From a virus, in IMG/VR virus record IMGVR_UViG_3300030116_001519, positions 1-49,834 of that record: DNA of 49,834 bases. One strand, given 5' to 3'. Each line of letters opens with the position of its first letter. The stretch's first letter is position 1. Under the pieces are notes generated by a model, which was given only the letters and a program-made list of their open reading frames with translations, was not told the origin of the DNA and ran no database searches. This document shows, in pieces, positions 3,001-44,734 of this stretch. Made by a program: the position numbers and the translations under genes.

Positions 3001-5187
3001 GCTGGTAATCTTATTGATGTACAAGCAAATCAGGTAGATGTTGATTTGAGTGAACTTACTGACGGAACTGCTGACATAGTTGGTAGTGAAGATGAGCTGG
3101 TGTATTTAGATAATGGTTCACAAAAGAGAAAGCTTGTATCAGAAATAAAACTAAGTCAGTTTAACAATGACTCAGGCTTTACTGCTAATACTGGAGATAT
3201 AACTGCTGTTGTAGCAGGAGATGGATTAAGTGGAGGAGCAACTTCAGGTAGTGCCACAGTCGATGTAGACATACAGGGAACTGCTTTAGCTAGTGAAGTA
3301 GCTACTAATGATTTAGTATTGATAGCTGATACTAGTAATAGCAATGCTATAAAGTCTATGGATATTAATAGTATAATTTCATTAGCACCACAGGGAGACA
3401 TAACCCAAGTTGTTGCAGGAACAAATCTAAGCGGTGGAGGTAATAGTGGTTCTGTAACTTTAAATGTAGATGACGCATTTTTAAAGAACGATGCAAACGA
3501 TACAACTTCTGGTACAATTACAGCTGCTGGTTTTACAACATCAGGTTCAATAACTTTAGGAGGTCATGCATTTAATGACATTGATTTAGCTGGTGAGTTC
3601 GTTGATGCTGATGACCATATAATGTCCTCTGCAGCGATAAATGATAGAATTACATCTTTTGGTTATACGACTAATACAGGAGATATTACTGGAGTTACGG
3701 CAGGAACTGGACTATCAGGCGGTGGTTCAAGTGGCGGTGTAACAGTAAACTTAGATATTGATGGATTAGGATTAGCACCAGGAGGAGCAACAGATGATAC
3801 TGTTGCTATATACGATGAGTCAGCTTCAGCTATAAAAAAATTACCTTTATCAGATATTGTATCATTGGCACCACAAGGAGATATTACTGGTGTTACAGCA
3901 GGTAATGCACTTACTGGTGGTGGTACTTCTGGAGCTATAACAATTAACCACGAAGATACTTCTTCACAAGCATCGGTTAATAATTCTGGTAGAACATATA
4001 TACAAGATATAACTCTTGATACTTATGGTCACGTAACTGGAATTACTTCTGCTACAGAAACAGTAACAAATACAGATACAAACACAAATCAATTAACTAC
4101 TTTCCAATTAGAAGATGGAGATGGTACAGAAGTTACTATTTCACACGGTAAAGAAGTTAAGTTTGTAGAGGGTGGTGGTATAGATATAAATTGGACAGAT
4201 ACTTCTAATGGTAGCGATTCAGACCCTTATGATTTAACATTTACAGTTTCATCTCAAACTGATAACAACTTTACTGATGCAGACCATAGTAAGTTAGACG
4301 GAATAGAGGCAAGTGCAGATGTAACTGACGCAACTAATGTGACTGCAGCAGGTGCATTAATGGATAGTGAGTGTACTAATCTAGCAGCTGTTAAAGGAAT
4401 AAACCAAGCATTAACTACAAGTTCTGATGTACAATTTGCAGCTGTAACTCAGTCAAGTTTTGTTATGGACGGTAATACTATTTCTGGTATTGATGATTCA
4501 GGTGAATTTACTAATAACGATTCTCACATTATGACTTCTGCTGCGGTAGAAGATAAAATTTTAAGTTATGGATATACTACTGCTTCAGCATTAGGTTTAG
4601 GTGATTTAGCTTTAGTAGATGATATTCCTGCTAGTAAAGTGGTATCTGGAACTCTTGCTTCAGCAAGAATACCAGATGATTTTATTAAAAACAATGCTAA
4701 TGACACAACAAGTGGTACGATTACTGCCGCAGGATTCAATACAGCTTCTGGTAAAGTAGGAGATGTTGATGATGAGTATATTGACTTTGGAACTGCTGGT
4801 GAAATACAATTTAAGATAGATAATGTTGAAGACTTTATGATGGCAGATGGTGGAACATTCCACGCAAACGCAGATATTATTGCTTCTTCTGGTAGTATAT
4901 CATCAGATAAAAAACTTAAAAAGAACATTGTAGATGTTTCATATGGATTAGATGACATATTAAAACTTCGTGGTGTAGAGTTTGACTGGAAAGAAAAATT
5001 TGAAGGTAAACACGATATTGGATTTATAGCACAAGAAGTTGAAGAGGTTATTCCAGAACTTGTAAAAGAAGTAGAAGGATTAAACGATGAAGAATCTCAC
5101 TTAGTTGTAAACTATACAAATGTTATTCCAGTTTTAGTAGAAGCAATCAAAGAATTAAAAGCTGAAATAGAGGAACTTAAGAAATGA
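1..5187 (+). CDS. Giant tail fibre protein, 5' end missing (fibre 1)
   Basis: The reading frame is open from the first base, so the true start lies upstream; 1728 residues are visible. The body is Gly/Ser/Thr/Asp-rich and low in Cys. It carries about eight copies of a repeat of the form GDIT-x-V-x-AGTGLSGGG-x-SG (for example near bases 1911, 2441, 2724, 2923, 3193, 3394, 3679 and 3874). A second repeat, DADHSKLDGIEASADVTD, occurs near both ends. The C-terminus, from about base 4900, matches the peptidase S74 intramolecular chaperone: SSDKKLKKNI, then GVEFDWK, then IGFIAQEVEEV, then a coiled-coil tail. In that family the chaperone trimerises the fibre and cuts itself off at the Ser of the SSD motif. 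The stop overlaps the next gene by 4 bases. A paralogue lies at 10563-15578. Confidence 0.88.
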   Translation, partial: ETLRFKKGSNITLSESGGVITIASTDTNTQLSNAEVRTAVEAASDSNVFTDADHSKLDGIEASADVTDETNVTAAGALMDSEVSNLSFVKGLTSGISNGNVLVANAAVSDNDFLKIDGTSVEGRTAAEMRSDLNVEDGATADQSAAEILTAIKTVDGAASGLDSDLLDGQHGSHYLDFGNFAIDDDEIPIAKLASDNVSYGGVTVTLGASDATPAFDLSDATSLPIVAGTSGTLSVARGGTGATSLNNLITLSTHTTGNYVAAISGTSNEIEVSGSGSEGATVTVGLPDDVTIGGDLSVTGGLTVNGSTTTLDVTNLKVTDNLIELNQGVSSNANDSGIIIERGSTGNNAIIMWDESADKFVVGTTTATADSTGNLTVATGTLVAAIEGNASTATALATGRDFSYTGDVTGTTASAFDGTGDVSVALTIASTAVEGSMLNNNVISGQTNMTGDVADADELMISDDGTLKRIDFSVFRDAIFNDVSGDATVAAGGALTIAANSVALGTDTTGNYVATLADSGTGGITVANSGSESAAVTVELDINGLTAATLASGDFLAFSDESATGDPTKKESIDDIATLFAGTGLTASSAVINLDINGLTLLGETAGSTDTLAIYDADAAAIKKVPVADLPFTNNSGDITSVGVTAGTGLTGGGSTNSGAFSATLALDFSGLTDMTGDISGTTEFILQDGTTESRKAASEIKLSNFNNDSGFVTANTMGSGFVLEDGDGTEVTITENKEVKFIDGKGMQINWTDTDNGTDGDPYDLTFDVDIQGTALAAEVATNDLVLISDTNDSNTVKSTTITEIVALAPQGDITEVVAGTNISGGGGTGSVTLNVDDAFLVNDANDTTTGTITAAGFTTAGNLTLGGHAVNDIDLGGEFVDADDHLMTSAAINDRITSFGYTTNTGDITSVVAGTGLSGGATSGEATLNLDINGLGLAPEVTTSDIVAIYDASATAIKKITVNDIVALASSGDITGVTAGNGLTGGGSSGGVSLAVGAGNLIDVQANQVDVDLSELTDGTADIVGSEDELVYLDNGSQKRKLVSEIKLSQFNNDSGFTANTGDITAVVAGDGLSGGATSGSATVDVDIQGTALASEVATNDLVLIADTSNSNAIKSMDINSIISLAPQGDITQVVAGTNLSGGGNSGSVTLNVDDAFLKNDANDTTSGTITAAGFTTSGSITLGGHAFNDIDLAGEFVDADDHIMSSAAINDRITSFGYTTNTGDITGVTAGTGLSGGGSSGGVTVNLDIDGLGLAPGGATDDTVAIYDESASAIKKLPLSDIVSLAPQGDITGVTAGNALTGGGTSGAITINHEDTSSQASVNNSGRTYIQDITLDTYGHVTGITSATETVTNTDTNTNQLTTFQLEDGDGTEVTISHGKEVKFVEGGGIDINWTDTSNGSDSDPYDLTFTVSSQTDNNFTDADHSKLDGIEASADVTDATNVTAAGALMDSECTNLAAVKGINQALTTSSDVQFAAVTQSSFVMDGNTISGIDDSGEFTNNDSHIMTSAAVEDKILSYGYTTASALGLGDLALVDDIPASKVVSGTLASARIPDDFIKNNANDTTSGTITAAGFNTASGKVGDVDDEYIDFGTAGEIQFKIDNVEDFMMADGGTFHANADIIASSGSISSDKKLKKNIVDVSYGLDDILKLRGVEFDWKEKFEGKHDIGFIAQEVEEVIPELVKEVEGLNDEESHLVVNYTNVIPVLVEAIKELKAEIEELKK

Positions 5188-6278
5188 GCTTGACTGCATC
5201 AGGACAAATATCAATGCACGATATAAGAAGTGAGTTAGGAGCTAGTGGAGAAATATCTTTGATAGAAGCTTCTGACGGTACTATAGCAACTATCAATACT
5301 CAAAATGATGCAGATGATAGACCAGACGGTAGTGCACCTCACGCTATGAGTGAGTTCTATAGCTATGACCACGATTTAGCTGGTACATCTTGGAGTGTTG
5401 CAGATAATACTGGATTAAATCTTGCTGATTTTCCTGGACAAACTGCAACAAGTACTAAAGATGCACAGATGACAGTAAATAATGGTAGTGGTGGAACAAG
5501 TTGTTCTTTGTCTACTAGTGGTGGACCATTTGGTAATTTTACATTAGCTATATCAAGCAGTGGCGACCCAGGTAGTGGCGGTACTAGCAATAGTGGTAGT
5601 GGATTTATTTCTACATCATCAGCTAATAGTAATAGTTTATTTACTGGACATAACTCTGGTACAAGATTTATTAGAACAAGGTGGCAACACACTCCAAGTA
5701 ATAAAGACGGTACAGGTTCTTATACATTAACACTTACTAACAACTCACAAACTGCAACTATTACTGGAACTATTAATTTTGCTTTTGGTGGAGGACCAGG
5801 TTTATGTATTTATGAAAACATACCAGTTAATTTAAAAGAAGGTACTGCAAACATACACGACTTAGATGTTGGAGATATGATTATGTCTTACAATTGGGAG
5901 ACTGGACAAGAAGAAGAAGTTGAGATACAACAGATAGAAAAAAGATTACACGAAAATTTATACAAGATTATGCTATCTGACCCTAATGATGAGACGGAAG
6001 GAGAAGAATTAAAAGAACTAATACTTACAGAGGACCACCCTATATATAAACAAGATGGTAGTATGGTATCTGAAGACCCAAGTAGAACTGCAGCAAACTA
6101 TGATTTAGATGCAGCTTCTATACAACCTAATGATTTACTGAAAGTATTAGATGGCAAGTACTATGCACAGGTGCATAGATTAGAAGGATTTCCAAAGAAA
6201 CATTGGACATATACTATATTAACAAAAAACAATAACTTTTACGCAAATGGCGTATTAGTACACAGTGAATTAACATAA
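5184..6278 (+). CDS. Tail-tip-like protein with C-terminal Hint domain
   Basis: This 364-residue protein starts at an ATGA overlap with the fibre stop. Residues 1-65 form a module with the motif SAPHAMSEFYSYDH, followed by a Gly/Ser-rich beta region. From Cys208, just after GGGPG, the sequence looks like a Hedgehog/intein (Hint) domain: CIYENIPV, then HDLDVGDMIMSYN, then T282-E-D-H285 (the TxxH block), then a last block NFYANGVLVHSE with His360. Hint domains catalyse an N-S acyl shift at the first Cys. The usual C-terminal HN plus Cys/Ser of inteins is replaced by HSELT, so I infer cleavage or transesterification rather than splicing. Its position after a fibre gene suggests a structural tip protein. 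No Hint-domain substrate can be named. Confidence 0.78.
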   Translation: MSLTASGQISMHDIRSELGASGEISLIEASDGTIATINTQNDADDRPDGSAPHAMSEFYSYDHDLAGTSWSVADNTGLNLADFPGQTATSTKDAQMTVNNGSGGTSCSLSTSGGPFGNFTLAISSSGDPGSGGTSNSGSGFISTSSANSNSLFTGHNSGTRFIRTRWQHTPSNKDGTGSYTLTLTNNSQTATITGTINFAFGGGPGLCIYENIPVNLKEGTANIHDLDVGDMIMSYNWETGQEEEVEIQQIEKRLHENLYKIMLSDPNDETEGEELKELILTEDHPIYKQDGSMVSEDPSRTAANYDLDAASIQPNDLLKVLDGKYYAQVHRLEGFPKKHWTYTILTKNNNFYANGVLVHSELT

Positions 6279-28864: not shown

Positions 28865-29481
28865 TATTTACTCCCTTTTAGTTTTGACAACACTTTATCG
28901 TAGTTGTCCTTGTTTATCTTGCCAGACTCTAAAGCAGCTTGAACATTTGTTTGGTCATCATCTTTTAAATTTTTCATGACCTCTACTATCTTGTCATATT
29001 GCCACTCATCTAAAGTCTTATCTAAATATTGTTTACGATATACATCGTCTGCTACATTACATAGTCTGTTTACTGCTACTTTAAAAGCATCAGAGTTTGC
29101 TGCTTTCATATCATTGCCAAGGTCTACATAACCTCCGCCACTTCTAGATACTGCAATTCTATGTGCTGCTACAGAATCAAAACTACGAGGCACACCTTCG
29201 TCCATAACTTTTAGACGTCCATGTACTACAATAGCCTTGTCTCCAAGAGTTTCGTATTTAATTATCTCCCAAGACCAAATAGGATAATGTTTATTTAACT
29301 TAAATCTCATATAACCCTCATCTACATAGTCAAAACCATTTCTGCTTTTAACTACATCTTGAGGAGTAGGTTGTTCTGAAACCTTTTGATGCTTGCGTAT
29401 TAATACATCGTCTTGAATTGCTTGGTCGTGCAATTGTTCCATATCAGATTGATACATATGTAATTCAGACATTTTACTCAT
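28864..29481 (-). CDS. Rad52-like single-strand annealing protein
   Basis: A 205-residue protein. The core YPIWSWEIIKYETLGDKAIV, then GRLKVMDEGVPRSFDSVAAH, then NDMKAANSDAFKVAVNRLCN, then DDVYRKQ, matches the Rad52-type layout: a strand-rich region, then a helix with the A-x-SDA-x-K-x-A pattern, then a Y-R end. Such proteins anneal complementary single strands in phage recombination. A helical C-terminal tail follows. It overlaps the RecB-like nuclease gene by 8 bases; a nuclease plus annealing protein plus SSB is the usual phage recombination trio. Other annealing superfamilies (RecT, Erf) fit less well. Confidence 0.62.
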   Translation of the reverse strand: MSKMSELHMYQSDMEQLHDQAIQDDVLIRKHQKVSEQPTPQDVVKSRNGFDYVDEGYMRFKLNKHYPIWSWEIIKYETLGDKAIVVHGRLKVMDEGVPRSFDSVAAHRIAVSRSGGGYVDLGNDMKAANSDAFKVAVNRLCNVADDVYRKQYLDKTLDEWQYDKIVEVMKNLKDDDQTNVQAALESGKINKDNYDKVLSKLKGSK

Positions 29482-30355
29482 TTATACTCCCATTGTTGTA
29501 AGGACATAGGTGTCTAACCTCACAATAAGATTGACACTTTCTACCGTCCCAAGTTTGTTCTGTTGTACATTTACTCGGCAAGTTACCAGTTTCTAATGCG
29601 TAAGTCAAGTCATTTTTTGCTTTTATGAATTTATTTTCAAGCACTTCATTATCATACTTAGGAACTTCAATAAGATAAATATTCTTATCTAGCCCAGTAT
29701 TTCTAGCCGCTTGCAATCCACCATCTCTTAATGTAACTTGTATATACATTTTATCTACTTCATGTCCTTGTTTTTCTAATAAGTATCTGTACCAATTTAC
29801 TTGCCAACCCCAATCTCCGAAGTCAGCCTTTTCTTCGTCTCTATACCAATGCTTAACTTTTTTTAGAGAACCTTTCTTTCCCCATTTACCAGACGTTTTA
29901 TATCTTTCTCCACTAGGGTCATCAACATATTCAAATGTCATACCTAGTAGTTTAGCACATTTAAAAGAGCCAGTATTCTTGTAATCTATAAGAAGTTTTG
30001 TTTCTTTATCATACAAGTCTGCTATACCAGTAATATCAAACTCTTCTAGTGCCTCTTCTTTTAAGTGTCTGTTATCTTGCCCCTGCTCAAGTTTTAAGTG
30101 GTGTAGAGTACCTGCTAAAGAAAATGCTCTGTCTTGTGGGTCTATATAATAGTCTTTAGTCCTTTTCAAATAAGCCTCACAAGCCCCTACTAATAATTCA
30201 GTAGTAGATGGTTTTCTATTAGGGTCTCTTTCCTTAGACATTTCTAGTAGAGTAGGTAATGACATACCCATCAACTCTATATCTACTGCGCCCTTTTTAA
30301 TATCCTCAAACGAGACTTTATCTCCATTTGGGTAAACGAAACCAACTGCTGGCAT
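29474..30355 (-). CDS. RecB/Cas4-like PD-(D/E)XK exonuclease with Cys cluster
   Basis: A 293-residue protein. LAGTLHHLKLEQ gives the helix with the motif-I His, FDITGIADLY gives the catalytic Asp, LLIDYKNTG gives the D-x-K, and GWQVNWYRYLLEKQG gives the Q-x3-Y motif of RecB nucleases. The C-terminus has KCTTEQTWDGRKCQSYCEVR followed by HLCPY, four cysteines that could hold an Fe-S cluster as in Cas4 and AddB. It would resect double-stranded ends for the adjacent annealing protein. The start follows AAAGGAAATACT and overlaps the ribbon-helix-helix gene by 38 bases. Confidence 0.75.
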   Translation of the reverse strand: MPAVGFVYPNGDKVSFEDIKKGAVDIELMGMSLPTLLEMSKERDPNRKPSTTELLVGACEAYLKRTKDYYIDPQDRAFSLAGTLHHLKLEQGQDNRHLKEEALEEFDITGIADLYDKETKLLIDYKNTGSFKCAKLLGMTFEYVDDPSGERYKTSGKWGKKGSLKKVKHWYRDEEKADFGDWGWQVNWYRYLLEKQGHEVDKMYIQVTLRDGGLQAARNTGLDKNIYLIEVPKYDNEVLENKFIKAKNDLTYALETGNLPSKCTTEQTWDGRKCQSYCEVRHLCPYNNGSINE

Positions 30356-31864: not shown

Positions 31865-33847
31865 CTAGGACTCTAAAGACTCTATCACTGAGTCGTAGGT
31901 TCCTTCTTCGTTTCTCCTGCTCAGAGACATCATTAGTTCAGTCTTAATCTGCTCATTATCAACTTCATTATCGTTCAGCATACTACTATTGAACCAATCA
32001 ATCCCTAATCTGTTTCTCTTTACTGGGTATGGAGAACCAGTAAAGGCGTGCCTATCGTCTATAGGTACTTTTATACTAGATATAGATATCCTATCTAGTT
32101 CCATACTACTTATCTCTAGTGTACCATTATCTTTAATATCTAGGGTACCTAGTCTGTTGTATAAGCAGTTTCGAATATGACTATCAGGAGTGTTAGTATT
32201 CTCTATTCTCTCTAGTGTTCTATTTCTAAAGTGAAGTCTAACCCAGTCTGGCATATTCAGTCTATCATATAGACTACTCATATTCATTACAGGGTTCCAC
32301 CAACCTAACAGCCTATTTACTACTGAGTAGTAGGCTTCTAGCATGTAATCATTACCACCAGCAGTCATTACAGCAGACATTGGTACAAAGTCTATGTCAT
32401 TGGCTAGTCGTTCATGTGCTAGTTGTTCTGTAATCTCTATGATTTGTCTAGCATAGTCTGGTTCTAGTTCGTATATCATACCTTGAACTTCTTCCCAGTC
32501 TATAACCTTAGTGGCTCTCATATTGGGAGAGTTTTCATTATAGATATTTAATAGACTACCAAATCTACTATTCTGCATACTAACTCCAGAATCTTGTAGT
32601 AGTACACGAGCGATGTCTGTACCTTCGCTCGCATATAGTTCGTTGGCAATCTCTTTCGTGTAGTCTATTAAACTAGTCCAGAATATAGCCCAGGCTCGCA
32701 TTTTAGTAGGATTAAGAGTACCACTATGATACCTAATCTCTATACTACCTATGCCACTTTCTCTTATACCAGGGTGCATGTTCAGACCAAAGTATCTTTT
32801 ATCGTTCCATCTGCTATCAGTATACCTATGGGTATCATACCAGAAGTCGATAAACTGGTCTCTGTTCCTCACACTACTAAACTCACCCCAGGATTGAGAC
32901 ATAGGTACACAATACCTACTGCTCCTTCTACTAGGTGGTAGCATAGTATATAGGTGTGGTTCTATAGCCTTAACATAGGCTGCTAGCACTATTCTATGAT
33001 ACCAGTCTAAATCCCTGCTATCAAAGTGCATATGCTGACCACAACTAGCGTCTACTTCACCACCATAGTATTTAACAGCGCCAGTAACTATGCCTATGTC
33101 TTTCCATAGATAGTCGCCTCTTCTAGGCTTCATATCTATTTCAGACCCTACATAACCATGACCAAATGAACTGGCATTATGTAGACTGCCATCGTATCCT
33201 GATACATCTCTAGGGTGAGCAGTATAGTTGTCAACATAGTCGCTAGTAGACTCTGATAGTTGTGTTCGCCATACAGCCGGTCCTATAGAACTACTATCAC
33301 CAAGGTTGTTATAATGTTCTATTTCTATACCAACACTTCTTCTACTAGGTATCTTGTCGAAGGATTGTTTATCAGCATAGCGATATACTACTCCATCTCC
33401 AACATCTAGAGACTCTGGTATAGAACCAGCAGGAGGATAGAGTTTATCTATGACTACCCACTCGGGATAGTTTTGAGTATTACAGCCATTAGCATTACAT
33501 ACATAGCCACTGCTTGTCTCCTCGTAGTCGTCATACTCTAGGTCTATTTCATCGTCGCATTCTTCACAACGAGCGAACCTATCATAGTATGCGTCCTCAG
33601 AGAAGTATTCTCCAGTGGTATCACTATATATTAAATCATCATAGTGGTAAATTTCACCAGTGGAAGCACACTCGCCATAACTATCAGCACAATCTTCACA
33701 GATGTATTCACCATCAGCATTATAATAGTCTCCTACTTGTTCTGCTGGTATTTCATCTCCACAATCGGCACAATATACTGGCTCTTGTTCTGAGTCTTCT
33801 CTCCTACTGCCATGAACTTCTTCATAGTTTCTATATTCAGGAGGCAT
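31865..33847 (-). CDS. Amidoligase (COOH-NH2 ligase) with N-terminal zinc ribbons
   Basis: A 660-residue protein from ATG 33847, which overlaps the amidotransferase stop by 11 bases and follows GGAG. Residues 20-125 hold CxxC pairs at 26/29, 50/53 and 94/97, plus C117 and C122, around strongly acidic Tyr-rich segments. Residues ~170-400 match the glutamine-synthetase-like Amidoligase_2 family: GIEIE at 173-177, GYDGSL, GSEIDMKP, CGQHMHFD with the HxH pair at 272-274, and SIEIRYHSGTL at 368-378. The family makes amide bonds on peptides or small molecules using ATP. About 260 residues of unknown function follow. The natural substrate is unknown. Confidence 0.8.
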   Translation of the reverse strand: MPPEYRNYEEVHGSRREDSEQEPVYCADCGDEIPAEQVGDYYNADGEYICEDCADSYGECASTGEIYHYDDLIYSDTTGEYFSEDAYYDRFARCEECDDEIDLEYDDYEETSSGYVCNANGCNTQNYPEWVVIDKLYPPAGSIPESLDVGDGVVYRYADKQSFDKIPSRRSVGIEIEHYNNLGDSSSIGPAVWRTQLSESTSDYVDNYTAHPRDVSGYDGSLHNASSFGHGYVGSEIDMKPRRGDYLWKDIGIVTGAVKYYGGEVDASCGQHMHFDSRDLDWYHRIVLAAYVKAIEPHLYTMLPPSRRSSRYCVPMSQSWGEFSSVRNRDQFIDFWYDTHRYTDSRWNDKRYFGLNMHPGIRESGIGSIEIRYHSGTLNPTKMRAWAIFWTSLIDYTKEIANELYASEGTDIARVLLQDSGVSMQNSRFGSLLNIYNENSPNMRATKVIDWEEVQGMIYELEPDYARQIIEITEQLAHERLANDIDFVPMSAVMTAGGNDYMLEAYYSVVNRLLGWWNPVMNMSSLYDRLNMPDWVRLHFRNRTLERIENTNTPDSHIRNCLYNRLGTLDIKDNGTLEISSMELDRISISSIKVPIDDRHAFTGSPYPVKRNRLGIDWFNSSMLNDNEVDNEQIKTELMMSLSRRNEEGTYDSVIESLES

Positions 33848-34976
33848 AATCAAACTCCATTTCCTCTTGTCCATGGTCATTATAACCCTGGAACCATTCA
33901 TAATCGTATAACCTCTCGACCAGACACCAGCGATTCGGAGTTAGTTTGCTCTCTGCATACCAACTACCATCTCTAGGGTCTAGGAAATACCACTCATTAG
34001 TATCAGGATTTAACTCCCAATACTCACTATCATTTCTATCCTCTATTGGATATAGGCTCTCTAGATTTTCTACACCATAAGACATTAAGTCTATGACCTC
34101 TTCAGGCTTTATGTAGCCATCATCAGGAACATCTTGGTTTAGAAATCCAAACTCTATATCTACATCATAGACATTAACTCCATAGTCTTCATCAGAAGAG
34201 TATGAGTTAATATCATAGTAGTTAGAATATACTTGATACTCTCTGCTCTTATACTCGAAACTAGTCTTTACTACATTAGTAGCATGCGACTGAAACTTTC
34301 TAGTATCAAAAGCATATAGGGTATTAGTATTAATCTGATAGTACTCAACCTCTAGATTTGCTGAGGCGAACGCCTTCTCTAGGAAACCAGCCTCAGAAGC
34401 ATAGAATAAAACTCTAGCGTCTGACCAGTATGCCAAGTAGCAAGGTCTGTTCTTTTCTCTAGCAAGATATAGAGTGTGAGTATTGTCTTTAACGAAAGAG
34501 ATTGCAAAGTCTCCATCTATGTGGTCTACTACTTTATCTATGCTTGGTTCTCTATTGACCAATTCAAATAGATACTGAGTATCCACCTCACAGGCTTTAC
34601 CGACTACTTTTTCTAGTTGGTCGGTATTATACAGACAGCCATTGTGAGCGCCGATAGTATTCCCAATATGAAATGGGTGAGCATTGTCTAGCGACTTCTC
34701 ACCCATAGTAGCAAATCGGGTATGTCCTATATATATACTTATATCGTTCATTCTACGCAGTGCATTCTTGAACTGAGTAGTCTTTATGAACTCGGAAGAT
34801 GGAGATAACGACTTGTGTACGAGGCTATTACCCTTACCTATCTCAGCAATACCTGATGAGTGTCGTCCTCTACTCTCGCTACTAATAGCAAGAGAAGTTA
34901 AGATAGTACGAGCATTCTTCAGTTGTTGCTTGGATAATGGTCTAGGGCTTTTAGCCATACCATATATTCCGCACAT
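33837..34976 (-). CDS. Class II glutamine amidotransferase (Ntn hydrolase)
   Basis: A 379-residue protein whose second residue is the catalytic Cys (MCGIYGMAK). The class II hallmarks follow: RGRHSSG at 36-42, GHTRFAT at 84-90, NAHPF at 98-102, AHNG at 110-113, DTQ at 132-134 and GDFA at 155-158. It takes ammonia from glutamine. The last ~170 residues are acidic and Tyr/Trp-rich and match no synthetase or isomerase domain I know. I infer that ammonia goes to the amidoligase encoded immediately downstream. The ATG follows AAGGAGAATACACT. A hammerhead ribozyme lies 27 bases upstream of the start codon. Confidence 0.85.
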   Translation of the reverse strand: MCGIYGMAKSPRPLSKQQLKNARTILTSLAISSESRGRHSSGIAEIGKGNSLVHKSLSPSSEFIKTTQFKNALRRMNDISIYIGHTRFATMGEKSLDNAHPFHIGNTIGAHNGCLYNTDQLEKVVGKACEVDTQYLFELVNREPSIDKVVDHIDGDFAISFVKDNTHTLYLAREKNRPCYLAYWSDARVLFYASEAGFLEKAFASANLEVEYYQINTNTLYAFDTRKFQSHATNVVKTSFEYKSREYQVYSNYYDINSYSSDEDYGVNVYDVDIEFGFLNQDVPDDGYIKPEEVIDLMSYGVENLESLYPIEDRNDSEYWELNPDTNEWYFLDPRDGSWYAESKLTPNRWCLVERLYDYEWFQGYNDHGQEEMEFDYAS

Positions 34977-35002
34977 AGTGTATTCTCCTTGTGTTTGTTA
35001 AA

Positions 35003-35067
35003 GTAATAGACGCCAAGACTGGAAACTTATCCTGGCGTTTCGGTCTACCGGACCTCATCAGTATTAC
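35003..35067 (-). ncRNA. Hammerhead ribozyme, type I
   Basis: On the minus strand all core boxes occur in order. Stem I strand GTAATA (35062-35067) is followed by CTGATGA (35055-35061). Stem II is GGTC, loop CGGTA, GACC (35042-35054). Then comes GAAA (35038-35041). Stem III is CGCCA paired with TGGCG (35033-35037 and 35011-35015) with a 17-base loop. Then TC (35009-35010) and the second stem I strand TATTAC (35003-35008), which pairs perfectly with GTAATA. Cleavage is expected after the C at 35009, between 35009 and 35008. Both ends open from stem I, so it is type I. It lies between the stop of the 35070 gene and the amidotransferase start. Confidence 0.9.
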
Positions 35068-35069
35068 GC

Positions 35070-35294
35070 TTATTCTATGTCCTTCATTACTCGCTTATAT
35101 ACATTGTAGTCAGTTTCTAGATTATACCAGGTATAGTCTATGCCTGTCTGTGCCTTGCGTTTAATTTCCTTGTTTATAGTAGCAGTACGCATTAAGTCGT
35201 ATTGTTCAGACCTAATCTCTTTTACTAGTGCTAGTACTTGTTCGTACTTGCTTTCTATCTGCCTCATCTTCAGCAGTGTTTCTTTTTGTGCCAT
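35070..35294 (-). CDS. Small helical protein, 74 residues
   Basis: A helical charged protein (LLKMRQIESKYEQVLALVKE, then LMRTATINKEIKRKAQTG). Its ATG at 35294 follows AAGGAAATACA, so it is translated although it overlaps the upstream gene by 83 bases in another frame. Its stop is 2 bases before the ribozyme, so ribozyme cleavage would free it from the amidotransferase message. Function unknown. Confidence 0.58.
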   Translation of the reverse strand: MAQKETLLKMRQIESKYEQVLALVKEIRSEQYDLMRTATINKEIKRKAQTGIDYTWYNLETDYNVYKRVMKDIE

Positions 35295-35634
35295 TGTATT
35301 TCCTTCCTAACCTTTTAAAGCGGTTATATTTACCCATAGGCAATTCTACACCACCTAGAGATTCTTCCTCTAGTTTATCTAGCAGTGGTTCGTTTGCCTG
35401 GACTATTTTCTTATTATGTTCTGATGGTTTACTACTAAAGTGTGCTAGCATATCGTAGCCTAGTCTGTTATACTTAGCAGTAAACTGAAAATTCTTTCTA
35501 GTTGATACTTGGTCTGGGTGTAATCCCTGCTCAGATAGTATTTCTCTATGCATTTCTACTACTTGCATGCAGTCTGCTATCTTGCCTTTTGTTAGCCCTA
35601 ACTTAGTAAGTATCTTTGGTTGCTTTTTCTTCAT
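35212..35634 (-). CDS. Basic hypothetical protein, 140 residues
   Basis: A Lys/Arg-rich protein with a helical start (LTKLGLTKGKIADCMQVVEM), a middle segment (STRKNFQFTAKYNRLGYDML) and a Ser/Thr-rich charged end. It is the second gene of the amidoligase operon. No catalytic motif was seen. It might bind DNA, RNA or protein. Confidence 0.55.
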   Translation of the reverse strand: MKKKQPKILTKLGLTKGKIADCMQVVEMHREILSEQGLHPDQVSTRKNFQFTAKYNRLGYDMLAHFSSKPSEHNKKIVQANEPLLDKLEEESLGGVELPMGKYNRFKRLGRKYNGTKRNTAEDEADRKQVRTSTSTSKRD

Positions 35635-35643
35635 GCTAGTGTA

Positions 35644-36024
35644 TTAGCCTCGCAATATCTTCCTAGTATTATTATATAACTGCTCGCTGTTGTGTGCTTC
35701 GCTGTGTATTAACATTCTACTATTATTAGGGGCAGATATATCTACGACTGAGTCTTTACCTGCTAGACCTTTGTACTTATAGATAGTATTTACTACTGAA
35801 GTTATATCAGTCGCCCATGCTATCCACTCATCGTTGTGGTCCCAGAACTTGTTCGTAGTGTTGCCATTGCGTAGGCTCAACTTCCATAGTCCATGCTCCT
35901 TGGTTATTCTTATGTATAGCCCAGGCTCAATATCCCTGAGGTCTACCTTCTTGTATTCTACCTTATTACAGCACTCGCAAGTGGTCTGCTTTTTGTAGTA
36001 GTCTACCTGTGTGTTATCTTTCAT
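35644..36024 (-). CDS. First gene of the amidoligase operon, Cys-cluster protein
   Basis: A 126-residue protein. C16, C18 and C19 in TTCECCNK suggest a metal site or a half zinc ribbon. The rest is strand-rich with several Trp (GLWKLSLRNGNTTNKFWDHN, DEWIAWATDITSVV). ATG 36024 follows CAGGAGACTATA. A small stem (CGACTA/TAGTCG) lies just upstream. Function unknown; the cysteines are reminiscent of the zinc ribbons on the amidoligase. Confidence 0.55.
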   Translation of the reverse strand: MKDNTQVDYYKKQTTCECCNKVEYKKVDLRDIEPGLYIRITKEHGLWKLSLRNGNTTNKFWDHNDEWIAWATDITSVVNTIYKYKGLAGKDSVVDISAPNNSRMLIHSEAHNSEQLYNNTRKILRG

Positions 36025-38993: not shown

Positions 38994-39752
38994 ATGAAGA
39001 CTCGAGTCGTTAAAGGAATAACCCACAACCTTTATGAGAGTGAAGTTGAATTTAGAGAATCACATCCTAATGTGTCTCTAGTTATGGACTGGCGTCATTC
39101 AAATAAAGGTGACTGGGTGTTAACCGACGATGGAAAGGTATGTCAAGTTTTACATTTAGGCATTCTTAATAAAAAATCAAACAAACCTAGTAGTTTTATT
39201 AGAACTATTATAGGTTCTTTTATTTGTGTTGATTCAGTTAAGATGCAAGGAAAAATGAGAACAAATATGCATACCTTTGCAAAAGATGGTGAATCTCCAA
39301 CTGTTAGACGTAAAAAAAGAAAAAAAGCAAATGAAAAAGAGTTTTTGTTTGCCTCTTACGTAGCAAAAGGAGATGATGTAGTAAAAGCATATATGAATGC
39401 TTTTCCTAGTAATAATGAACAATATTCAGAACAACAAGCAAAAATGTTGTTAAAAACTAAAAGGGTGCAGAACTTGATAAGAGAAGAAATAGATAAACAC
39501 TTGCAAGAAGCTGAGATTACTCCAAAGTATCTTTTGGAGGAAATGAGAAATATAATAGATAAACCAGATAGTAGTGATAGAGATAGACTATCTGCTTTAA
39601 GTACGTTAATTAAAATATCAGGAATGCTTGATACGAATAAAACAACAGAAACTGTTGCTTTGTTCCAAGGATTCTCAAAGGAGCAACTAAATGCAATTCA
39701 AGAATCGAAATACGAAAAATTATCAGAAGGCAGTAAAATTACTGAAAAGTGA
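38994..39752 (+). CDS. terS: Terminase small subunit-like protein
   Basis: A 252-residue protein. The N-terminal ~90 residues are strand-rich with an unknown role (DWRHSNKGDWVLTDDGKVCQ). After a Lys-rich linker (RRKKRKKANEK), residues ~110-160 (FLFASYVAKGDDVVKAYMNA, then QQAKMLLKTKRVQNLIREEI) match the helix-turn-helix DNA-recognition domain of small terminase subunits. It recognises phage DNA to start packaging. Its position two genes before the large terminase supports the call. The extra N-terminal domain is unusual. Confidence 0.62.
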   Translation: MKTRVVKGITHNLYESEVEFRESHPNVSLVMDWRHSNKGDWVLTDDGKVCQVLHLGILNKKSNKPSSFIRTIIGSFICVDSVKMQGKMRTNMHTFAKDGESPTVRRKKRKKANEKEFLFASYVAKGDDVVKAYMNAFPSNNEQYSEQQAKMLLKTKRVQNLIREEIDKHLQEAEITPKYLLEEMRNIIDKPDSSDRDRLSALSTLIKISGMLDTNKTTETVALFQGFSKEQLNAIQESKYEKLSEGSKITEK

Positions 39753-43966: not shown

Positions 43967-44734
43967 ATGGCAAATGAACAAGAAAAACAACAGGTTGAAC
44001 AGGTAGACCCAATAGTTGCTGGTGCTGCTGGAAATGAGCCAACTATTTCAGTAGAGGAACAAGAAGCTGAAGGTGCAGAAACATCTGAGGCTGTAGATTG
44101 GGAAGCAGAAGCAAAAAAGTTTCAGTCAATGTATGATAAAAAAACAGCAGAATATGAAAACTTTAACCGAGAAGCTGCAGAGCTTCAACAGTTAAAAAAT
44201 TTATTAGCTGAAAGACCAGACGTTGTCAGAGCTATGGAATCTGCTCTAACTGACAAATCTGATGGGACAAACACATCTAATGACGAAATCGTAAGTCAAG
44301 AAGCGTTTGACCCTTGGGATGCTTACTACAAGCCAGATTCTCCATCCTACAAAATGAGGGTGAAAAGGGAACAAGAGCTTGTACACGAAACAGTTGACCA
44401 AGAAATTGGTAAACTGCAACAGACTATGGCAGTAAATAATTTAAAAAATGAGTTAAAATCTAGACATAAGATGTCAGATGATGAAGCTGCAGATTTTATA
44501 CAATTTGCTACAACACCTAGAGGTGACTTACCTCTTGATACTCTTATTAAAGTATACAGAGAAAGAGATGGTAAAAAAGTAAATGAAAATAAAAAAGCAG
44601 TAGAAAAAGCTCAAAGTATACCACAATCGGCTGGTGTTCTTCAAGGTGGAGAAGCTCCACAAAAAGGAGAAAAAGACCAAGTGTGGGATAGAATTATGAA
44701 TGCTGGTAGTATAGGAAGAATAGCTAAAAAGTAA
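43967..44734 (+). CDS. Capsid scaffolding protein
   Basis: A 255-residue acidic protein, Glu/Gln-rich at the start (NEQEKQQVEQVDP), helical in the middle (FNREAAELQQLKNLLAERPD) and ending in a basic helix (WDRIMNAGSIGRIAKK), which in scaffolds binds the coat protein. Its position between portal and major capsid genes is the standard one. It helps the procapsid assemble and is then removed. ATG 43967 follows AAGGAGGAAAAGTAAAA. A weak stem lies in the gap before it. Confidence 0.75.
   Translation: MANEQEKQQVEQVDPIVAGAAGNEPTISVEEQEAEGAETSEAVDWEAEAKKFQSMYDKKTAEYENFNREAAELQQLKNLLAERPDVVRAMESALTDKSDGTNTSNDEIVSQEAFDPWDAYYKPDSPSYKMRVKREQELVHETVDQEIGKLQQTMAVNNLKNELKSRHKMSDDEAADFIQFATTPRGDLPLDTLIKVYRERDGKKVNENKKAVEKAQSIPQSAGVLQGGEAPQKGEKDQVWDRIMNAGSIGRIAKK

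Follow-up and report, generated by a model that had tools for sequence, protein, structure and literature searches.

Among the hammerhead ribozymes closest to the element described here are those reported from phages and prophages by Perreault et al. 2011 (PMC3088659), which include the hammerheads of phage PaP3, the A. tumefaciens ardA triple, and the haloviruses HF1/HF2. In that study, active phage and prophage hammerheads were found to flank genes, the processing of long phage RNAs was proposed, and attention was drawn to a mapped transcript 5' end no more than 3 nt away from the hammerhead site of the HF1/HF2 haloviruses. What such hammerheads do for phages is described as an open question (PMC6155905). 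The pistol, twister sister, and hatchet ribozymes were found near hammerhead- or twister-associated genes (PMC4604425, PMC10085705), and the same logic of discovery, in which a different structured RNA lies where a hammerhead stands in relatives, applies to the locus analyzed here.

This locus belongs to the IMG/VR record of an uncultivated virus (IMGVR_UViG_3300030116_001519), the phage genes of which include those for terminase, portal, head, and a DnaB-like helicase; the whole 49,834-nucleotide stretch is referred to here as the window. Positions 35067..35003 of its minus strand hold a complete type I hammerhead motif, with all the core nucleotides and three stems by direct reading, which stands between phage genes like the hammerheads of PMC3088659, in this case between a small ORF and a GATase_6/Amidoligase_2 gene pair (PF13522, PF12224). 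The first of the pair encodes a class II glutamine amidotransferase (GATase_6) of 379 aa (33837..34976, minus strand; PF13522 at E 1.5e-15, phrog_4736 at E 2.4e-39), which also matches PF13537, and the second an Amidoligase_2 protein of 678 aa (31865..33901, minus strand; PF12224 at E 1.9e-14), the start of which overlaps the end of the GATase ORF. Three ORFs in the same orientation precede the motif, in agreement with the three upstream genes of the initial annotation: a 74-aa ORF (35070..35294, minus strand) that stops 2 nt before the motif, a 140-aa ORF (35212..35634, minus strand), both with homologues only in loci L021, L022, and L023, and a 126-aa ORF (35644..36024, minus strand), with homologues in L021 and L022 and a weak phrog_22654 match. 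A conserved internal promoter within the 74-aa ORF was also considered, and was rejected because promoter-like matches are no commoner there than in shuffles.

The hammerhead itself is of a known kind, and the novelty lies in its gene context, given that the literature searched yielded no example of a hammerhead at an amidotransferase gene. PaP3, like the window phage, has an operon of amidoligase and glutamine amidotransferase genes, but its hammerhead-like sequence is located among early genes, near 44,000, unlike that of the window, which is in the amidoligase operon, and these coordinates led us to reject the idea that the known PaP3 hammerhead belongs to its amidoligase operon. As a separate observation, PaP3 (L089) presents twice, at 33183-33308 and 39597-39666 on the minus strand, a hairpin leader of the form GUUAGUAAU[R]CCCC..GGGG[Y]AUUGCUGGC followed by a Shine-Dalgarno (SD) sequence, which has no Rfam match at E 0.5. 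One of these repeated hairpin leaders precedes the ATP-grasp gene near the amidoligase operon, and NV1 (L092) has a similar form at ~4690-4825.

The minus strand of the window from 35067 to 35003 reads GUAAUA CUGAUGA GGUC CGGUA GACC GAAA CGCCAGGAUAAGUUUCCAGUCUUGGCG UC UAUUAC, which may be split into its parts as GUAAUA-CUGAUGA-GGUC(CGGUA)GACC-GAA-[A-CGCCAGGAU..GUCUUGGCG-U]-C, with UAUUAC following the predicted cut. Under the core definition of PMC3088659, all the positions are present, i.e., C3 U4 G5 A6 N7 G8 A9, G12 A13 A14, A15.1, U16.1, and H17. On this strand, the 5' strand of stem I, GUAAUA (35062..35067), pairs over 6 bp with its 3' strand, UAUUAC (35003..35008), while the core box CUGAUGA (C3-A9; 35055..35061) is followed by the 4 bp of stem II (GGUC-CGGUA-GACC; 35042..35054), the core G12 A13 A14 (35039..35041), and stem III with its loop (35010..35038), which has 10 bp including A15.1-U16.1. 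The pairs adjacent to the core are standard (1.1-2.1 A-U, 10.1-11.1 G-C, and 15.1-16.1 A-U), and the three helices surround the core with stem I open, which is the type I arrangement. Folded in isolation, the element has precisely the hammerhead fold as its minimum free energy (MFE) structure (-19.2 kcal/mol; z = -1.8), so that the core nucleotides and three stems described on the transcribed strand in the initial annotation are borne out by both reading and folding. The C17 residue falls at 35009, and the cleavage site proposed there, 35009/35008, is thus the right position.

As the motif is simple, a chance resemblance to a hammerhead had to be weighed. The strict type I descriptor has a single match in the window, which is the hammerhead, and none when the whole window is shuffled 200 times with its dinucleotides preserved, while in 4.19 Mb of locus DNA (both strands summed) it finds, outside the window, only the orthologues in L021 and L022. 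In the Rfam covariance search envisaged in the initial annotation, no match was obtained in the window at the gathering level. A short-region search gave RAGATH-1-hammerhead (RF03152) with 28.8 bits (E 0.0042), half of the 56.3 bits set as the gathering score of this family, which means that the element resembles the family and is not classed as a member. The match extends over the whole model, with the type I order, the identical CUGAUGAG..CGAAAC..GUC core, a short stem I, and a long stem III in common, whereas the window element has a longer stem II and only part of the model's small upstream hairpin. The low Rfam score may be counted in favor of chance, although the silence of Rfam is weak evidence, given that the control scan of the PaP3 genome also produced no hammerhead match up to E 0.5, even though the PaP3 hammerhead is reported active (PMC3088659) and a hammerhead-like CTGATGA..CGAAA..GTC can be read near 43976-44113. 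An exact DNA pattern with the same stem II found no further copies in IMG/VR.

The comparison of relatives decides this point. Scans of IMG/VR with the amidotransferase returned 20 loci, and then, with an alignment, 66 loci, to which a third scan with the hammerhead-side alignment as the query added none. The hammerhead is found at the same junction in L021 (protein 91% identical), L022 (80%), L023 (45%), and L055/L056/L062 (50-51%), and in every hammerhead locus it lies no more than a few nucleotides from the stop codon of the upstream gene and immediately ahead of the SD of the GATase gene. In the alignment of the L021, L022, L023, L055, and L056 copies, the core columns are invariant: the core box is fixed bar N7, as are G12 A13 A14 and the UC that precedes the cut, in all the relatives with the motif. 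In stem I, on the other hand, GUAAUA/UAUUAC of the window is replaced by CUUACU/AGUAAG in L023 and CUAA/UUAG in L055, with pairing kept by compensation, and stem II appears as GUCGU/ACGAC in L022, GGGC/GCCC in L023, and GUCUGC/GCAGAY in L055/L056, all paired. Stem III covaries in L022, L023, and L055, and both stems II and III are wholly different among relatives, yet paired. This retention of the core in L022, L023, and L055/L056, together with the compensatory changes in all three stems, indicates that the hammerhead is under selection and supports the type I assignment of the initial annotation. Chance, which retains an almost negligible probability in our own estimate, is refuted by this conservation with compensation, and is excluded. 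We read the selection, from these alignments, as acting on a cutting RNA and not on a mere hairpin.

Some of the relatives depart from the standard core-adjacent pairs, with an A.G or A.A at 10.1-11.1 in L055/L056 and an extra U at this position in L023, which shifts the pair; hits with features such as a non-standard 10.1-11.1 pair or an extra base there were rejected in PMC3088659. In L055/L056, loop II (UAGGUAUA / AAGGUAUA) could pair over 6-7 nt with the AUACCUA that immediately follows stem I on its 3' side, which would be a stem I-II pseudoknot of the kind found in natural hammerheads in PMC3088659. Within 5890-5990 of L055/L056, the segment AUACCUAA can pair with either loop II or the 3' strand of stem I, which is a possible on/off switch.

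In the window copy, inspection revealed no stem I-loop II tertiary contact or pseudoknot, so that cleavage at physiological magnesium may be slow. When at least 20 nt of upstream sequence are added, alternative pairings with the 3' strand of stem I are 0.7-1.5 kcal/mol better than the hammerhead fold, in an energy model that ignores tertiary contacts. One segment that can pair in this way, in competition with the hammerhead fold, is AGUAAU at ~35085-35090 (minus strand), at the end of the 74-aa ORF, and it is not conserved in L022.

The lack of a visible loop contact, the competing upstream pairing, and the use of a different structured leader in relatives would all be compatible with a structure that descends from a hammerhead but has lost any useful rate of cleavage, and that stabilizes the 5' end of the GATase message or modulates its translation. 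We hold this to be unlikely, given that the core bases, which are needed for the chemistry and not for the stability of the stems, are invariant in four diverged copies. A regulated hammerhead, the cleavage of which would depend on a ligand, a protein, or the translation of the 74-aa ORF (the last codons of which are able to pair with stem I), appears to us somewhat less probable still. The competition between AGUAAU and stem I, and the two possible partners of AUACCUA in L055/L056, count in its favor, but the absence of the competing segment from L022 and of any aptamer-like extension from the window copy argue against it.

Our preferred reading, which we regard as highly probable from the comparative evidence, is that 35067..35003 on the minus strand forms a type I hammerhead ribozyme that is under selection within an operon of the phage, with intra-operon mRNA processing as its most likely purpose. 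The points that count against a processing ribozyme include the unreached Rfam gathering score, the slightly favored upstream pairings, and the fact that most of the operon relatives manage without a hammerhead. The motif, its core and stems, and their conservation with compensatory change come from the comparison of sequences, and from them we infer self-cleavage and a role in processing. Once the RNA polymerase has passed the element, the RNA would cut itself co-transcriptionally after C17 (35009), and the three small genes upstream would end up on a separate transcript from the GATase-amidoligase message. This message would be left with a 5'-OH end beginning with the UAUUAC of stem I, a leader of 32 nt (34977..35008, minus strand), and a free AAGGAG Shine-Dalgarno sequence (34990..34985, minus strand), as foreseen in the initial annotation, which had described a leader of about 32 bases with this site. 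Processing of this type would make the enzyme pair independent of the upstream genes in message stability and translation, and would clear the upstream hairpins from the ribosome-binding region. The effect on enzyme dosage or message stability suggested in the initial annotation may follow from it.

The initial annotation had made its proposal depend on the conservation of the core in related phages, which holds wherever the hammerhead exists; in most of the operon relatives, the hammerhead is absent and not decayed. None of the remaining IMG/VR relatives has a hammerhead at the amidotransferase junction, and at least 25 of the 39 non-hammerhead loci tested have another structured RNA at the same place, directly after the upstream stop codon and before the GATase SD. 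This alternative leader (for example, at L036:5866-5954, and in the same place in ~25 loci, L026-L084) is 90 nt long and is built on a P1 stem, GCGACGA..UCGUCGC, that runs on into P2 (P1/P2 of 15-16 bp) and leads to a three-way junction with the hairpins P3, with GUCG in its loop, and P4, with UCCUUUC (both fixed), followed by more hairpins and the SD. Across 23 distinct aligned sequences, both sides have changed in 18 of the 23 consensus pairs, and 90.7% of the cells pair; none of 500 shuffles reaches any of the five measures, and the signal is lost when the partner is slid by 1-3 columns.

A covariance model of this leader matches 21 of the 39 loci at E < 1e-10, most of which are the model's own building set, and, with E values of 0.004-0.18, a further four in the correct position (L070, L071, L026, and L084); it has no match in the window. 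The leaders of the other 14 loci are structured as well, mostly with a CCUUU loop, and no statistically supported relation between them and the model was found. Divergent leaders in L025, L043, L063, and L073-L079 (~5820-5960) present a GACA.. outer stem, an inner GCC..GGC stem, a CCUUU segment, and an asymmetric internal loop, with CAAUAY in some, and are perhaps rearranged forms of the same alternative RNA. Two DNA-pattern scans of IMG/VR, with a loose pattern and the covariance model, gave only GATase leaders among the matches listed, L152 being a GATase start too, so that the alternative RNA looks dedicated to the GATase gene. Among the isolated phages of a 50,697-record collection, no near relative of either the window leader or the alternative leader was found.

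The 4227 Rfam models gave only chance-level matches to the alternative leader, and the scanning of L005, L031, and L036 singly up to E 10 matched no pistol, twister sister, or hatchet family. A conserved small protein was rejected as an explanation, given that the ORFs spanning the leader fail to align with one another and are interrupted in L052 and L065, as was a decayed or permuted hammerhead, given that, of the alternative leaders, only that of L029 has CTGANGA, without the rest of the motif. On this evidence, the alternative leader appears to be an undescribed structured RNA. It could represent an undescribed class of self-cleaving ribozyme that makes the same cut as the hammerhead of the window lineage, which we propose only tentatively and consider rather improbable; if it is not a ribozyme, it would be an undescribed leader for processing or translation control, with a UCCUUUC loop able to pair with the GATase SD. 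In all 32 leaders examined, pairing of the P4 loop with this SD is possible over at least 4 nt, which is a lead only, because a pyrimidine-rich loop would always pair with an SD.

A single branch (support 100/99, 100% of bootstraps) separates the hammerhead bearers from the alternative leaders in a tree of 54 amidotransferases, and one leader swap is enough to explain this tree. When distant phage enzymes serve as the outgroup, the clade with the alternative leader remains intact (100/99) and the lineages with the hammerhead lie next to the root, which suggests that the hammerhead came first and was then replaced, although the outgroup branches are very long and the root is not firmly fixed. 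The downstream gene order is common to hammerhead and non-hammerhead relatives, and an exonuclease-like gene (29474-30355) has ~75-80% identity across both groups, which indicates phages of one kind with different leaders.

At a single operon junction, one lineage thus has a hammerhead and its sister lineage a conserved RNA unrelated to it, with the downstream genes in common, which repeats the pattern by which pistol, twister sister, and hatchet were found. The presence of a different structured RNA at the same place suggests that the phage benefits from some processing or leader function at this junction, and the alternative RNA of the sister lineage probably serves the same step. Given that the two leader types stand at one junction before common downstream genes, this role can be tested by comparing both.
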